Below, in pieces: positions 4,367 through 17,761 of a DNA stretch of 64,000 nt. The stretch comes from Paramacrobiotus metropolitanus (taxonomy: Eukaryota > Tardigrada > Eutardigrada > Parachela > Macrobiotidae): assembly GCF_019649055.1 (NCBI RefSeq), contig NW_026570397.1, forward strand, positions 124,001-188,000. The letters run 5' to 3'. The notes beneath the pieces are model-generated. The model saw only the letters and a list, made by a program, of their open reading frames with translations, searched no databases and was not told where the DNA came from. Both the position numbers and the translations under genes were made by a program. Each line of letters starts with the position of its first letter. Within the stretch, counting starts at the first letter, position 1.

Positions 4367-4867
4367 CTACCATTCCCCCCGTTGCCACGTTGTTGTCGGG
4401 GTTGTTTGCGTGGCACCAAGCCGAAGCGGTTGGGATTGAGTGCCCCTGTCGGTAATACCTTCTGGTATCGACACTGCGAAATCAAGGTACCGTATCCGAT
4501 TAGGATTGTCCATGTAATCTTTATTGGCGTGGCCGCATCCTTCAATTTTGTGGTTTCCCCAGAGACAGTAGTTGCAGATTATGGTTCCGTCTCTGGTCCA
4601 CCGTTCGAACATGCGCTCGATCCGATCGATGTACATGTTCTCTTGGCCTGCACTGCCTCCTTGGCCACGTCGTCCGGAGCCACTATTGCCGCCGCCTTGC
4701 TTTCCGCTGAAACTGGCGTTTTGACCTCCGCAATATCCGCCTCTTTGTCCTCCACCGCCACCGTTGCCCTGGCTATAGCCAAAATTCCACTGGTTCTGGG
4801 CCTGGCCATAACCACAACCACCAACGTTAGGCGGTGTGGGCCCACGGTGTGGCGCGCCCACCTTCAT
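4367..4867 (-). CDS. Gag nucleocapsid-like segment with CCHC zinc knuckle
   Basis: This open frame of 166 codons is rich in Gly, Gln and Asn over residues 1-75. A CX2CX4HX4C zinc knuckle follows at residues 98-111 (Cys98, Cys101, His106, Cys111), bases 4576-4535. Zinc knuckles of this spacing bind nucleic acid in retroelement Gag proteins. Just before it lies a short helical stretch (IDRIERMFERW). The frame overlaps another open minus frame (4545-4171) that carries a similar Gly/Asn-rich basic tail, which suggests a frameshift near 4440. All four ligands are intact, unlike the broken frame around them. Confidence 0.65.
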   Translation of the reverse strand: MKVGAPHRGPTPPNVGGCGYGQAQNQWNFGYSQGNGGGGGQRGGYCGGQNASFSGKQGGGNSGSGRRGQGGSAGQENMYIDRIERMFERWTRDGTIICNYCLWGNHKIEGCGHANKDYMDNPNRIRYLDFAVSIPEGITDRGTQSQPLRLGATQTTPTTTWQRGEW

Positions 4868-5236
4868 AGCCGCGATAGCGGCATATGGTGCTTCAATTTG
4901 AGCTTGGGTTGATGTAAGCGTCTGTGGAGGATAGTAAGCCGGTGATGTTGGCTGTTGCGGTACGACTTGGGCAGGTGGCGTTGGTGCGGCCGCCCGGATG
5001 ACCAGGTATCCTTAGCCCGCCTTCCCGTCGTATTCGGTTTTACCTGCCGTAAACTGCCGAATATAGTCCCGAAATTCTGTCGGAGACTTCGGCAGCCAGA
5101 TTTCTAGGGCACGGCGCAGTTCTGGCTCAGTCATATTGGTCTTCGGGAAATGGTGAGTCATTGTGTCGTCTAAGTTGGCGCGTGCCTGGAGAGTTAGGAT
5201 TGTGTCACAGTTTTGGTCTGTCGTCTCGAAACCGTG

Positions 5237-5635
5237 TCAGGAGGTAAGGTGCGAGATGTCTCCAAGAGCATTGGCCTGTTGGTTCTCGTCGTCGTATCGA
5301 GCGGCAAACTTCCGAAGAAATTCGTCGACGGTCCAGCCGACGCCTTCTTCACGCTTTACCCGGCCCTTATACCATTCCTTGACCGGTTTGGACAAAGATG
5401 CGAAGATGCGGCTCATAAAGTCCGTGTCTGGCTTGTTAAAGTCGGACGACTGCTTACAGATCCTTCTGATCTGGGCAATCCACCCTTTCACGGCTGCCTG
5501 GTCGCCGTTGAAGGTCGGCTGGGTGGTCCGGGCGTTAGCTTTTGCATACGAGTCGGTCAGCATCTGCATGTGTACCAGGTCATGCACTGGCGGACTGGCA
5601 CTTGGCGACGGTGCAGGCGCTATCTGCTGTACCAC
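5237..5635 (-). CDS. Gag capsid-like domain (Retrotrans_gag type)
   Basis: The frame contains a helical segment with the sequence SLSKPVKEWYKG followed by a W..DEFLRKFAARY segment. This matches the pattern of the Retrotrans_gag family, in which an A..W(Y/F) motif is followed some 15-20 residues later by W..F...F...F. The frame closes at 5237. In a neighbouring frame, coding-like sequence continues to about 5010 (ILTLQARANL, then LEIWLPKSPTEF), so the domain is split by a frameshift. In intact elements this domain builds the particle shell. Confidence in the family is moderate, because it rests on motif spacing only. Confidence 0.6.
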   Translation of the reverse strand: MVQQIAPAPSPSASPPVHDLVHMQMLTDSYAKANARTTQPTFNGDQAAVKGWIAQIRRICKQSSDFNKPDTDFMSRIFASLSKPVKEWYKGRVKREEGVGWTVDEFLRKFAARYDDENQQANALGDISHLTS

Positions 5636-5659
5636 TACTTGTGGCGGTAGCTGCAGTGC

Positions 5660-11056: not shown

Positions 11057-12386
11057 TTATAGCACCACCTCCATCTCGAACTGCACATCGTCCACCGGTC
11101 CGGCGGTACTCGTTCTAACGCTTCCACTACTCTTCAGCATGAAGATGACCACGGCGGACGGTGTTTTTGCCAGCATGGTCACCCTGCAGAGTTGCGCCGC
11201 TCCGGTTCGTTGCCTTTATTAAGCACCGACATTCGCTAACAATTTCCCGTCCTTCACCGACGTCACCACGTGATTAACATCCTCCGCCTGGATCGTCACG
11301 CCCTCCAACGACCGCCTGCCCTCATGGGGCCCTTGTGCACCTCGATCATGGAGGCAGGTTAATGGACGCTTGCTGACCTCCCAGAAGGAGGCCGGGTGCT
11401 CGACGGCGGGATACCTCCAAGTTTCAACACCACAGCCCCAGCGTGATCTCGAAGGCGTTGCTGCGAAATTATCTGCAGTCTTGCCAACCCCTCCGCTACC
11501 GGGTAATGTTTGGCGCCGTTGGGGAAGCCGTTCTTCAAGTTCTACGGCAGCGTTTGATGTATTCCGGCAAGGATGGCACACAAAAACATGGCCTGGTATC
11601 CCTGGGAATTCACCTCCGCCACCTGCTTGAAGATGGCGTCGCCGGGACTCTGGCTGTAGACGGAGGAGCCGCCGGTGGGGTTCTGCTGGAGGTCGCCGCA
11701 GGAGTAGCTGACCGGCGGCGAGCCCGTGGAAGAGAATGAAGGAGCAGCGGTCCAGGACATGATGACGGCCGTCTTTGGCTGCTGGCGGGCGTTGTCGCTG
11801 GCAAATTGGTCGTAAAAAAAGGTTGAAGGGATGCGGTTGTCCGTCCTGACGCGGTCCTGTACGCAAAGTAGTCGCTTGAACAGGAGGCCGAATCCGTTGG
11901 GGTTCACGGAAGGCAGGATGTGGATGTAGGCGGCATTGATCAGTGTCTGAATACCGGGTGATACGGCGCGTCGTTTTAGCTATCCAGGAGGGTCTGGATC
12001 AGCAGCAAGAGTGTGATGTACGAGCACGATTGGTTTCACGAGATTCCTGACCATTGTCTTGGCAACACTGACAGCTACAAAATAATTATCTATGACGTCA
12101 TTATCTATGACTATGTTGAACGTATACGGTATATCAGGTTGTATTGGTCAAATCATACTCAGTACATAATTGTCAGAGAAAACAAAACACAAAACTACAA
12201 TAGAAAATATTGTTGTATTGTTGTTTCTGTTGTGTTGTTTAGTTCAGCTGCCATTTGGTTAAAAAACAGTGCAAGTCAATACGTGAAAACGAGTAACTCG
12301 CGGCCCACCACCTCCTTGCGGTGCATGTTGCCCACGTAGTTAAATTCCGGCTTGCCCTCAACGAATGCCATCATAATTTTAGCCAT
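11057..12386 (-). pseudogene. M14 metallocarboxypeptidase, CPE/CPD type, degenerate
   Basis: The minus strand carries, in order, the hallmarks of the regulatory (N/E) carboxypeptidases that trim C-terminal Lys/Arg from peptides. The segment 12386-12283 encodes YVGNMHRKEVVGRELL, with the HxxE zinc ligands kept although the usual Gly-Asn between them is Arg-Lys. After an intron, 11935-11890 encodes IHILPSVNPNGFG (family PS.NP.GF). Around 11820-11580 lie an NR motif, an HG in a shifted frame and a YSQSPGDAIF segment. Near 11290-11240 the start of the transthyretin-like domain (VTSVKDG) appears, and the gene closes at a TAA at 11059-11057. At least three frame changes interrupt it. It is either a pseudogene or a gene carrying sequence errors. 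The N-terminal exon is not seen with certainty. Confidence 0.65.
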
Positions 12387-12949: not shown

Positions 12950-15520
12950 ATGTCAGCGTCGCCCGACCCTGAACCATTCATCATTGGGAGCAAGGATATG
13001 GGGGACAAATGCAAAAGAGCTGGGCAGATCGCTAACAGTAAGTGTGCAACTGGTGCATCCACCGCCCGTTTCTCGTGTGGTCCTTCTCCGATCCCTTGCA
13101 GTCACTAGTGCGCCGTCCTGAACATATCGTAATCCAGTTAAGCCTGTGATTTGCGTGGACTGCTCAGAGCTCGCTGCATTCGTATGCGGGTACCAGAAGT
13201 AGAGAATTCACCAGATTCTTCTTTTTGGTTACAGAAGTTGTTGACAGCCTTCTGGAGAAATGCGTGCCCAGCCAGTCAGTGCGGGAACTGTGCGAAGCGG
13301 CTGATGCCATGATCGTCGCGGAGACATCGTTGGTTTTTAAAGCCAACCTGTATAAAGGTTGGAGCAGGCTTTACTGCCCAGCGCTGTGGTTTTGTAGTTG
13401 CCGTTGATATGTTGATGGAGTACAGTGCATTGACAGGTGTTGCTTTTCCAACATGCATCAGCGTCAACAACTGCGTCTGCTACTTTTCCCCCCTCAAGGC
13501 CGACCCCGACCGTCTGCTGGATCACGGAGATCTGGTTAAAATGTATGGAATTGCTTTTATGTACCGTAATTGCTTTATCACTGAGCCGTGTTTGTTTGTT
13601 TTGTTTCTCCAGCGAATTGGCCGTCCACATTGACGGATACACCGCCAGCGTCGGATATTCACATGTTGTTGGCGCTACGATGGTGAGTTTTTTTTTTTTT
13701 TTCAGGCAATAGCCAATTAAACGTAACAAAAAGCCTGCGCCGAAAGACACTAATTAAAAAGTTTGAATTTACACATTGAAAAAACAACCAAAGTCATTAC
13801 TGTCACATCCAACTTTCGGTCGCGCGTTTAATGTACCCAAGACAGCAGCCGCATTTCCTTTAACAACAGCGAGACTAAAACGTTGTCTAAGGAAAGCCGT
13901 AGATCGAGATTCCCCGGTCACATCGCGAATCTTCCTCCCGACAAAACGTATCATCTCAGCAAATTCCGAACCAAAAGTTCCAAGGGTTTCGACTGCGAGG
14001 GTGTAGAACAGATACCCCATATCCTCCAAAAATCCGTACTTCCCGCGCTTAAAGTCTTCCGCCAGCCGTGCCACGTTACCTGGCTTCTTTGAGCTGGCTT
14101 TTACGTGCGAGGTAGCAGTTGCAGTACGTTGCCTTGTTTTTGAACTGAATTCGGTTTTTAGTGGGTGTTGACTTCGTGACATGTTGCAAATGCTGCAAGA
14201 ATAGCCAGAGAACTGTTTTCCAGCTTGTAAGCACAACGTGGGTGATTGCAGGACAGTCCGGCGAGCGGACGCCACGCCGACGTCATGCTGGCAACAAACG
14301 CCGCCATGGAGGCCTACTCGCAGCTGATCAAAGGCGGAGTTGAATTTGATGTGCGCCTGCATGAGTGTACTCGCTAGTTGAACACGTTTCAGCTGATAAT
14401 GCTTGTTATGCTTTTGGTAGTATTGCAAAGCAAAGCGAATGGTGGAGACCGTAGTCCAGGGCTTCCAGTGCAAGCTAATGCACATGCTCCCCGAAGGGAA
14501 AACGAAATTCCACGTCAACGAAGTCGCTCAACTGGAGATTCTGGTCAGCACGGGCGAAGGGCTGGCCTACGAGTACCTGGACACGGAGAGCAACATCTTC
14601 CGCTGGAACGACCTCTCCGATTCACTACCTCGCTCGGCTTCTCGTGGTGCGAAGAGTGAGTGCGAAATATCGAGTGCAAGCTACGTACCTTGTCATTTAT
14701 CGGAGTAATGCAGTACGTAATCGGTATTTACATAATCCTGCTTATAATCGAAAATATTATTTTCCGTTGCCCGTGTTACTTGTGTTGCTTGTCAGCATGG
14801 CTTCCTTGCCCTAGACTGAATTTTTAGAAGAAAGTTTCTTCTAATTTCAAGAAACTGACTTCGCAATTTACAGTATAATTTTTTGTAAAATCTCGGTATG
14901 ATCGGACTTATCGCACCTTTTCGGTATGATTGCACTTATTGCCAGCCATGAATTATTCAAAAGTAAAATTAAGTGACGAGACAAGTCAGAACACCAGTAT
15001 TCACCAGTATGACGAGCATTCACCATTACGACAACTGTCGACAAGCATTCACCAGTACGACGAGCAGTAACTATTAAAATTAATGATTAATTATTGTTAA
15101 TACGTATTACGTGCAGTGCGTACAGCACGATACTCTGTGCATTAAGCTGGTTATAGGTAGCTGCTAGCAAAACTGCTCTTTTGCCTAGCGTACTTGTTAC
15201 TGTTGATGTGTTGTGTTGTTGATTATCATTGCATGGATTGCTTAGAATTCCTCGCCGAAACTTCTAGCAAGTATGGAACCTCGAGTTTTTCACTGAGGTA
15301 CTTTGACGACGAGGAGACCGCCCGCCTGTCCGCCCAGGAGTGCGTCGATCACGGTATTCTGCTGGGGTTCCCGGTACTGTATGAAAAGGAAGGCGAGCTA
15401 GTGGCGCTGCTCAAATGCACCGTGGGTATCACTCCCACCGGAATCCAAACGCTCACCGGCTGCTCCTTGAACGTGGATGCCTACATATCGAATCACAAGA
15501 TCGTCGACGTTGATTTAGAG
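12950..15520 (+). CDS. PA2G4/EBP1-like protein, seven exons
   Basis: Proposed exons are 12950-13037, 13235-13357, 13437-13542, 13613-13682, 14252-14350, 14421 (or 14436)-14655 and 15268-15520, all with GT-AG borders and matching phases. The product follows PA2G4 (proliferation-associated 2G4, a catalytically inactive methionine-aminopeptidase fold that binds ribosomes and RNA): GQIAN, then [62 protein letters not shown] and [14 protein letters not shown]. Relative to typical PA2G4, about 30 residues around the middle 'EGMLSH' segment are missing. A frameshift lies near 14606-14625 in exon 6, after which the other frame resumes the family pattern. No lysine-rich C-terminal tail is seen; exon 7 instead abuts a vigilin-like exon in phase 0. 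It may be a divergent paralogue, the 5' part of a chimeric gene or a decaying copy. Confidence 0.7.
13769..14120 (-). mobile_element. Retroelement reverse-transcriptase C-terminal fragment in an intron
   Basis: On the minus strand, inside the 569-bp fourth intron of the PA2G4-like gene, an open frame ends at 13769 and encodes a segment with [10 protein letters not shown], then [18 protein letters not shown] and [10 protein letters not shown]. This pattern is familiar from the C-terminal end of many metazoan retroelement polyproteins, probably of non-LTR type. Only the end of the protein is present. The upstream part of the same open frame (14121-14518) overlaps exons 5 and 6 and is only their mirror image. 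The last 75 bp have a homologue at 9067-9142. Confidence 0.55.
14991..15069. repeat. Short imperfect tandem repeat in intron 6
   Basis: Variants of CATTCACCAGTATGACGAG recur four to five times between 14991 and 15069, mixed with CATTCACCATTACGACA. Just upstream, TCGGTATGATCGGACTTAT at about 14893 recurs in altered form at about 14921. These simple repeats explain part of the unusual length (612 bp) of this intron. Confidence 0.6.
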
Positions 15521-15652
15521 GTGCAACCTGTTGGTACTGCTTGTGCGGCATCTGGTGTACATTGTTAACTATGCAGTCTTTAATTTAAGCCTTCTGTTGA
15601 GTTAGTGCTGGTGTTGATGCAGGAGGGGGATTTGTGACCATGTCATTTGCAG

Positions 15653-16162
15653 GCGCAGTGCAGCTATCGCGTGGAGATGCGCGTAGATCCAAAGTACCAC
15701 TTCCAGCTGATCGGTCAGAGCGTGCAACTGAACAAAATTCGAGATGAGTTCCAGGTGGAGCTGCAGTTCCCGCGCAGTGACGCGGCCGCTGAGGATGCCG
15801 ACAAGATCGTCATCGTCGGGCTGGAGTCGCAGGCGCACGCGGCGCGCGACAAGATCCAGACCATCGTTGAGGCCGAGGTGAGGAAACAGAGATGGTCAAC
15901 TGCAGCGCTGCAGAATGTAATGGCGTTGGTGTCCGTTGTGCAGAAGAGCCAGTCGCAAGTGAAGGTCCCCCTGGACAGCCGCATCCACGCCCGCATCATC
16001 GGCGACAACCGCACCGGTCTGCAACAGCTGGAACACCGCTTCCAAGTCAAGATCAACTTCCCGCGCCGCGACGATGAGGACGCCAACGTGGTGACGGTGG
16101 TGGGCGAGGAGGGGAATGTGCACGCCTGCGAGGCGGAGCTGAAGCGACTGGAGGGCATCTAC
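15653..16162 (+). CDS. Vigilin-like KH domain pair (two exons)
   Basis: Two exons, 15653-15877 and 15944-16162, are joined in phase 0 with a 66-bp GT-AG intron. They encode two KH domains that follow the last two KH domains of vigilin (HDLBP), a large RNA-binding protein with 14 KH repeats found on translating ribosomes and the ER. The first has RVEMRVDPKYH then LIGQSVQLNKI and FQVELQFP; the second has VPLDSRIHARIIG then FQVKINFP and VVTVVG. In both, the GxxG loop has lost its second glycine (GQSV and GDNR). The preceding exon of the PA2G4-like region joins in phase. The other twelve KH domains are absent from the window. Confidence 0.75.
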
Positions 16163-16222
16163 GTGCGTCCGCTGACTGGTTTTCATTCACAGCAGGGTTA
16201 ATTCGCGCGTTTGTTGTTGCAG

Positions 16223-16600
16223 CTGAACGATGTGGCGAAGAAGACCGCAGGTGCCCACCGAAGCACGGCAACGGGCCCGGGGCGTCAGGACGCCAAGTCG
16301 AAGCGGAAAAGCCCCGTCGCGATGTCAGCCAAACCGTCCCGCCGTGGGCGACCAAAAAAGGGCGCCAAACCCCGCACTGGAGTGCTTAAGGGAATGCTAC
16401 GAAAAGCCTTACGTAACCGTCACGTCCGCGCGTTTTCGGAGGAAGAGAAACGAGAAGTAGTCGGTGTGTATCGTACGTATCCAAGCGAAGCCACGGAAAT
16501 TGCCAACATTTTGAACTGTACAGGCTTGTCGCGTAACACCATTTATTCATGGTTTGATGAATGTGAGCGCGCTTCCGGTCACACGTCGGTGGGAGGATGA
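16223..16600 (+). CDS. Terminal exon: vigilin-like tail, AT-hook and helix-turn-helix
   Basis: After the acceptor at 16221-16222 the frame stays open to the TGA at 16598. The first residues (LNDVAKK) continue the vigilin C-terminal helix end. A basic linker follows, then an AT-hook core RGRPKKG (16343-16363). Next comes a three-helix segment (about 16433-16570) with EEKREVVGVYRTYP, EIANILNCTGLSRNTIYSWF and DECERA, the pattern of a helix-turn-helix of the transposase, psq or CENP-B N-terminal kind. An internal ATG at 16322 could start a stand-alone 92-residue DNA-binding protein. The AT-hook binds the minor groove of AT-rich DNA. The unbroken frame shared with the vigilin tail is the main evidence for a fusion. 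Confidence 0.6.
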   Translation: MNDVAKKTAGAHRSTATGPGRQDAKSKRKSPVAMSAKPSRRGRPKKGAKPRTGVLKGMLRKALRNRHVRAFSEEEKREVVGVYRTYPSEATEIANILNCTGLSRNTIYSWFDECERASGHTSVGG

Positions 16601-16654
16601 GTTGTTGCGTTTTTGCAGAGGTACACAGACGTATGAAATGTTTGGTCATCATTG

Positions 16655-16660
16655 AATAAA
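16655..16660 (+). terminator. Polyadenylation signal of the chimeric gene
   Basis: AATAAA lies 55 bp after the TGA stop of the AT-hook/HTH exon. It is the first canonical polyadenylation signal I saw downstream of the PA2G4-like exons on this strand, which supports one transcript ending here. Confidence 0.6.
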
Positions 16661-17309: not shown

Positions 17310-17761
17310 CATACTTCGAATACTGCCTTATATGGGCTCCCCTTATATTACTCTCCCTTATCTGGGCTCCCGGCTAGTTTGCAACACCCGTCAAATTAAA
17401 TTTATCGGATTTATAGTAGAACCCTTTTCTACTTCTTTCAATCGGATTTACCATTAAGCCCACCAAAGAATTCCGAAATTTAATATACGAATTATATTTA
17501 TATATTTTATTTATATATATTCTTCCATTAATTTCAACCGAATCTGCCAATGAACAAATTGAAAAATGCTACAAAATTACTGGCAAAATAAGTATTTTAA
17601 ATAAATCAAAATTTTCAGTCAGTGATAACACACTGATAACAACTGCGAAAGTGTGAGTAATAACGTAACCGCCCATGTAGAGGGTTGCTCATATTGCTCG
17701 GGAGCCCAGATAAGGGAGAGTAATATAAGGGGAGCCCATATAAGGCAGTATTCGAAGTATG
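17310..17761. mobile_element. Foldback/MITE-like element with 63-bp inverted ends
   Basis: The left end 17310-17372 and the right end 17699-17761 are exact reverse complements of each other. They enclose a 326-bp AT-rich centre with no transposase frame. The arms begin CATACTTCGAATACTGCC and include a doubled GGGCTCC and CTTAT pattern. This is the architecture of a non-autonomous foldback or MITE. No clear target-site duplication is visible outside the arms, so the true ends may lie elsewhere, or the arms may have arisen by inverted duplication. Confidence 0.7.

Follow-up and report, generated by a model that had tools for sequence, protein, structure and literature searches.

A 64,000-nucleotide stretch of DNA from the tardigrade Paramacrobiotus metropolitanus, referred to here as the window (C177:124001-188000 within an assembly of 169.8 Mb and 533 contigs), carries a ten-exon open gene on its plus strand (12950-16600), in which a PA2G4/EBP1-like body is followed by two KH domains of vigilin type and by a C-terminal tail with an AT-hook and a putative helix-turn-helix (HTH). 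Judged on its structure and the order of its steps together, it is very probably a real chimeric gene that arose by exon shuffling at the DNA level; the structure is visible in the sequence itself, and the steps are put in the order that explains it most simply. The full explanation favored here, namely a chimeric gene kept by selection, with the history given below and with a nuclear DNA-binding role, is assigned a probability of about 0.5.

According to spliced alignment, all introns are GT-AG and the exons make up a single frame of 605 amino acids (Table 1). The seven PA2G4-like exons, the 132-bp intron in matching phase, the two final KH domains of vigilin and a terminal exon that reads without a stop from a vigilin-like start through the AT-hook to the HTH, all of which had been claimed by an earlier sequence-only reading, are present, and so is the polyadenylation signal that it placed at 16655; an earlier ATTAAA is located at 15073, inside the intron preceding exon 7. 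Exons 1-7 scored 52.2 bits against PF00557 (cut-off 23), and their best PDB matches were PA2G4 chains (eleven sequences, 196-216 bits). Exons 8 and 9 matched vigilin KH chains in PDB (2ctl and 2ctm) and share 78% and 72% amino-acid identity, respectively, with the last two KH exons of the genome's own vigilin. Exon 10, which goes on through RRGRPKK to the putative HTH, was aligned by its start to vigilin's last exon at the DNA level with a score of 73 (maximum of 500 shuffles, 60).

The sequence-only reading had named as fatal to itself the pairing of complete PA2G4 and vigilin genes elsewhere with a silent fused locus, and the first half of this pairing is found. A canonical PA2G4 at C43:827 kb, which reaches up to 466 bits to PDB PA2G4 chains, keeps its lysine-rich C-terminus, and a full vigilin at C119:358-364 kb has 12 KH matches by Pfam; no AT-hook was seen when the last exon of this vigilin was read directly. 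KH12-KH14 is used here as a label for vigilin's last three KH exons, after the usual count of 14. Searching the genome with the PA2G4 part returned at least five PA2G4 loci, plus a weaker hit on C112 with 26% identity; this number of paralogues is a lower bound, because the search takes one exon at a time and may overlook weak matches. Two of these loci, C43:1080 kb and C48:246 kb, encode PA2G4 with the AT-hook/HTH tail and no KH domain; the former has a short extra exon between the PA2G4 body and the tail, and in the latter the exon that carries the tail corresponds in position to that of the lysine-rich region in the canonical copy.

The second fusion copy is a paralogue on C41 (minus strand, 1073008-1069097), which joins PA2G4 to KH12-KH13-KH14 and the AT-hook/HTH tail in eleven exons; its frame of 669 amino acids has no internal stop and includes one more vigilin KH exon than the window gene. 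All ten window exons align to ten C41 exons with matching boundaries and phases (spliced alignment), and blocks of DNA homology run from 13005, inside exon 1, to 16658, past the stop and at the AATAAA. The phase-1 intron after exon 1 is present in the models of C41, C48 and both C43 genes. Because architecture and splice phases recur at the second locus, the arrangement is more than chance, and the claim of a chimeric gene holds, with order, splice sites and phases alike in two diverged loci and with signs of constraint. In C41, the intron that separates KH13 from KH14 (locus L002, about 3720-3206) measures 515 bp, compared with 66 bp in the window, and a stretch of it resembles a tRNA-derived element by eye; no tRNA was found in this locus by ARAGORN.

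As to its history, the gene was probably assembled in three steps. Firstly, a duplicate of PA2G4/EBP1 would have gained a C-terminal AT-hook and HTH in place of the lysine-rich helix; secondly, vigilin's last three KH exons, with the introns belonging to them and the beginning of vigilin's last exon, would have landed behind PA2G4 exon 7 and ahead of the tail, in phase 0; finally, the fused gene would have duplicated, and the window copy would have lost the first of its three KH exons. A maximum-likelihood tree built from the PA2G4 part of six sequences over 329 columns, with zebrafish as the outgroup, grouped C41 and C177 together (100/100); they were joined by C43 (70.3/66) and then by C48 (89.2/82), with the canonical copy outside. 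Because the tailed C43 and C48 copies, which have no KH domain, branch outside the pair of C41 and C177, the simplest reading is that the tail came before the KH insertion, support at the deeper nodes being modest. In the window, the KH13/KH14 intron and the one separating KH14 from the tail can still be aligned to their vigilin counterparts (scores 41 and 52, maxima of 500 shuffles 32 and 41, respectively), and therefore DNA, not a processed transcript, moved. Moreover, the two halves of the fusion intron resemble different C41 introns, the 5' half intron 7 (score 56; maximum of shuffles 34) and the 3' half intron 8 (score 41; maximum of shuffles 38). This would follow from a deletion of the KH12 exon from the window copy, which is probably what happened between the two halves. 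C41 intron 7 gave no signal above shuffles against the vigilin intron preceding KH12. As for a donor of the tail, genome searches with three tails (window, C48 and C43) returned only PA2G4 paralogues and weak matches on C8 (E 0.85) and C30 (E 3.0), and a genome search with PF01527 returned 16 matches (E 0.09-0.93), the C41 tail among them; a PF01527 match on C148 reaches the cut-off only together with its neighbors in frame.

Passages of a cryo-EM paper name 16 EBP1 residues as ribosome contacts, with R243 forming a salt bridge to uL23 (PMC7005732). When these residues were mapped through zebrafish PA2G4, 11 of the 16 were found to be kept in the canonical copy, 5 in C48, 3 in C43, 3 in C41 and 4 in the window gene. 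All contacts kept in C48, C43, C41 and the window gene are among the 11 that the canonical copy keeps, and conservation over all canonical-kept sites is 0.81, 0.67, 0.60 and 0.62, respectively; the excess loss of these 11 contacts gives P values of 0.008, 0.007, 0.028 and 0.069 in the same order, which come from related sequences and are not independent tests. In the fusions, R243 is changed to E or D, K66 is lost, and F266 and S267 are replaced. As well, about 26 body residues are deleted and the lysine-rich C-terminal region is absent from both the window gene and C41.

The KH domains have also changed. In both fusion copies, the KH13 loop GQRG has become GQS-V, with one glycine deleted, and the KH14 loop GGKG has become GDNR, and these losses of GXXG stand among 14 replacements common to the two copies; the C41 KH12 loop reads GEAG, compared with GKAG in vigilin. 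An AT-hook is defined by an RGRP core flanked by K/R, a form that the window tail RRGRPKKGAKPR has, and binding to AT-rich DNA is predicted. A profile made from four tails matches Cgl2762 (2jn6) with an E-value of 9.9e-6, and this match, together with Pfam hits below the cut-off and a helical prediction, suggests that the tail may contain an HTH, the family matches being weak.

According to passages of previous studies, both PA2G4/EBP1 and vigilin are associated with translation (PMC7005732, PMC9117268), and EBP1 also acts in the nucleus, with isoforms that are located at promoters and have Sin3A/HDAC2 and Rb as binding partners (PMC8080562). Because the AT-hook has stayed invariant and the ribosome contacts, the lysine-rich helix and the GXXG loops have for the most part gone, the fusion might be a nuclear DNA-binding scaffold or adaptor and not a ribosome/RNA factor, a role to which we give somewhat less than even odds. 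Such a nuclear protein would bind DNA through its AT-hook/HTH, and its M24 fold and degenerate KH domains would serve as protein-binding surfaces, similar to the co-repressor role of EBP1 and the chromatin role of vigilin; it probably would no longer dock at the ribosome in the manner of EBP1 or bind RNA in the usual KH manner. Viewed as a family, a ribosome-exit factor is tentatively proposed to have become a small group of DNA-binding chromatin proteins stepwise, through duplication, exchange of the rRNA-binding helix for the AT-hook/HTH, erosion of the contacts, KH capture and exon loss. On the same proposal, the captured KH exons could act as protein-binding modules and the forms of successive steps would coexist in one genome, which is conceivable, if a little short of an even chance.

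The rival that survives best holds that the protein is still a ribosome or translation factor, with its PA2G4 part at the tunnel exit, its KH domains on mRNA or rRNA and its basic tail replacing the lysine helix. Basic tails can also bind RNA. The tail of C48 sits in the exon position of the canonical lysine-rich region, and both parents are translation-associated, but the exchange of R243 for an acidic residue, the loss of K66, the replacement of F266 and S267, the deletion of about 26 residues and the loops GQS-V and GDNR make this role unlikely. The hint in the sequence-only reading that two working ribosome/RNA activities had been joined to DNA binding is likewise weakly supported, with many contacts, the lysine-rich helix and both GXXG loops lost.

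Window and C41 copies were compared over 587 aligned codons and are 71% identical, with a synonymous divergence (dS) of 0.55 and a ratio of nonsynonymous to synonymous divergence (dN/dS) of 0.33; by part, dN/dS is 0.27 for PA2G4, 0.33 for KH13, 0.54 for KH14 and 0.37 from the AT-hook to the end. The 95% interval of the corresponding ratio of proportions of differences (pN/pS) is 0.27-0.46 for the PA2G4 part, 0.27-0.68 for KH13 and 0.28-0.76 from the AT-hook to the end, and it also lies below 1 for the whole gene, the whole tail exon and the HTH. When neutral evolution was simulated by substitutions alone, at 0.275 per site per copy, about 12 stops arose per copy, with a minimum of 2 in 1000 runs each, and none is observed in either copy; the KH and tail part alone, in which no stops are observed, was stop-free in 3 of 2000 neutral runs. 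The two intact copies of the fused gene thus look as if they were kept by selection. A burst of amino-acid change just after the fusion was not found, as shared changes (15 nonsynonymous, 8 synonymous) and private ones (50 and 30) do not differ (Fisher p 1.0). That the locus is a pseudogene, or that segmental duplication left it without function, as might be suspected from the satellite array 5.5 kb away and from degenerate vigilin-like copies on C48, is improbable in view of 605 and 669 open codons, each set against the simulated stops, and of the dN/dS value.

More improbable still is the presence of two genes, a short PA2G4-like one that stops with exon 7 and a small gene for KH, AT-hook and HTH that begins within the 132-bp gap. 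Full-length relatives of each part do exist elsewhere in the genome, and the intron preceding exon 7 contains an ATTAAA, but the two diverged loci agree in order, splice sites and phase 0, neither AATAAA nor ATTAAA occurs within 15521-15652, the KH frame opens at 15638 with no ATG ahead of the KH exon at 15653, and two paralogues that lack KH have their PA2G4 part joined to a tail of this type. An assembly artefact joining unrelated contigs, in whose favor nothing was found, has hardly any chance of being right, for the arrangement is found on two contigs (C177 and C41) that have diverged at synonymous sites to 0.55.

Several results count against the favored explanation of a selected chimeric gene with a nuclear DNA-binding role. 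Concerning the HTH, the C41 tail scored 19.1 bits against the HTH_Tnp_1 Pfam profile, under the curated cut-off of 24.1, and the window tail gave no match to this profile at E 1; the predicted fold of the last exon has helices at moderate confidence in a low-confidence model (mean predicted local distance difference test, pLDDT, 60.8), and Foldseek found no structural match for it in PDB, the best of the 27 matches listed having an E-value of 3.1. Concerning the ribosome contacts, retention over all 16 is not or barely below background identity (0.37 in the window gene, 0.37 in C41, 0.57 in the canonical copy), with P values of 0.886 for the canonical copy, 0.144 for C48, 0.046 for C43, 0.098 for C41 and 0.224 for the window gene. 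Concerning selection, the pN/pS interval of KH14 (0.31-1.33) reaches above 1, and that of the vigilin-derived start of the tail (15 codons) is 0.30-3.79. Concerning the DNA-level origin, neither the 3' half of the window fusion intron nor C41 intron 8 gave a signal above shuffles against the vigilin KH12/13 intron. C41 has no AATAAA after its stop, the nearest candidate being an ATTAAA 300 bp downstream.

Among known systems, PA2G4/EBP1 (M24 fold) is homologous to exons 1-7, whose intron positions and phases equal those of the genome's own canonical gene except for one lost intron; unlike it, the window gene lacks about 26 residues and the lysine-rich C-terminus, has many ribosome contacts replaced, and carries added KH and DNA-binding parts. 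Vigilin (HDLBP/Scp160/DDP1) is the source of the two KH exons with their intron positions and of the beginning of exon 10; the window gene differs from it in having two KH domains without the long tandem array, in its lost GXXG loops and in its other C-terminus. The tail resembles AT-hook proteins in its RGRP core within a basic context and HTH_Tnp_1-like proteins in the similarity of the four-tail profile to 2jn6; unlike HTH_Tnp_1-like transposases, it has no transposase domain, sits on a PA2G4 body and matches Pfam only below the curated cut-off. PIPSL, described in an earlier report as a chimeric gene made by co-retroposition (PMC2773790), is likewise a new gene from two unrelated parents; because introns came along in the window fusion, its transfer was DNA-based, unlike that of PIPSL.

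Table 1. Parts of the chimeric gene, in positions of the window
Feature	Position	Strand	Remark
Exon 1, PA2G4-like, ATG start at 12950	12950..13037	+	spliced models
Exon 2, PA2G4-like	13235..13357	+	spliced models
Exon 3, PA2G4-like	13437..13542	+	spliced models
Exon 4, PA2G4-like	13613..13682	+	spliced models
Exon 5, PA2G4-like	14252..14350	+	spliced models
Exon 6, two ancestral PA2G4 exons merged	14421..14655	+	about 26 residues and one intron missing; common to C41
Exon 7, PA2G4-like, phase-0 end	15246..15520	+	spliced models
Fusion intron, 132 bp, GT-AG, phase 0	15521..15652	.	5' half like C41 intron 7, 3' half like C41 intron 8
Exon 8, KH domain (vigilin second-last KH), altered GXXG loop	15653..15877	+	PDB 2ctl, E 7.3e-10
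Exon 9, KH domain (vigilin last KH), GXXG loop changed to GDNR	15944..16162	+	PDB 2ctm, E 6.9e-9
Exon 10, chimeric last exon: vigilin-like start, AT-hook, putative HTH; stop 16598-16600	16223..16600	+	
Vigilin-like start of exon 10 (LNDV...GRQDA)	16223..16294	+	DNA alignment to vigilin last exon
AT-hook RRGRPKKGAKPR	16340..16375	+	RGRPKK identical in 4 of 4 aligned tails
Putative helix-turn-helix, three predicted helices, transposase-type by weak profile match	16439..16576	+	
AATAAA polyadenylation signal	16655..16660	+	DNA homology to C41 extends to 16658

On C48, vigilin-like KH copies that have a UCH (ubiquitin-specific protease) domain nearby on the same strand were also observed, in L008 (296-302 kb), L010 (415.5-421 kb) and L004 (271-275.5 kb), the domain being identified at E 3.5e-30 in L010, at 4.2e-7 in L008 and by eye in L004; they are possibly a second, separate family of vigilin fusions. 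In L005 (C9:417-422 kb) and L012 (C238:32.5-38.5 kb), a single exon like vigilin's last KH lies downstream of the open frames of an unnamed protein, and three of these frames in L005 gave no Pfam match over the cut-off. Elsewhere in the window, an array of a 159-bp satellite (about 264 copies, 94% matches) fills 22133-64000, and a perfect 63-nt inverted repeat (17310-17372 and 17699-17761, 326 nt apart) resembles a foldback element or miniature inverted-repeat transposable element. A frame at 11542-11976 on the minus strand is similar to zinc carboxypeptidase (M14) at 17.7 bits, below the Pfam cut-off of 21.6, and two more minus-strand frames (4367-5011 and 5237-5659), which by eye look like retroelement gag with a zinc knuckle, had no Pfam match at E 0.1.

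In a limited literature search, no report of a PA2G4-vigilin-AT-hook/HTH architecture was found, which is no proof that none exists. On the arrangement of its exons, the gene appears to be a clear case of a new protein from exon shuffling, and this one genome holds an unusually complete record of the assembly of a multidomain protein, including the unfused parents (C43:827 kb and C119), the tail-only forms (C48 and C43:1080 kb), the longer fusion (C41) and the trimmed fusion in the window. If the fusion is expressed and nuclear, a translation factor would have been recruited to DNA, and the roles of the added modules would be separable paralogue by paralogue.

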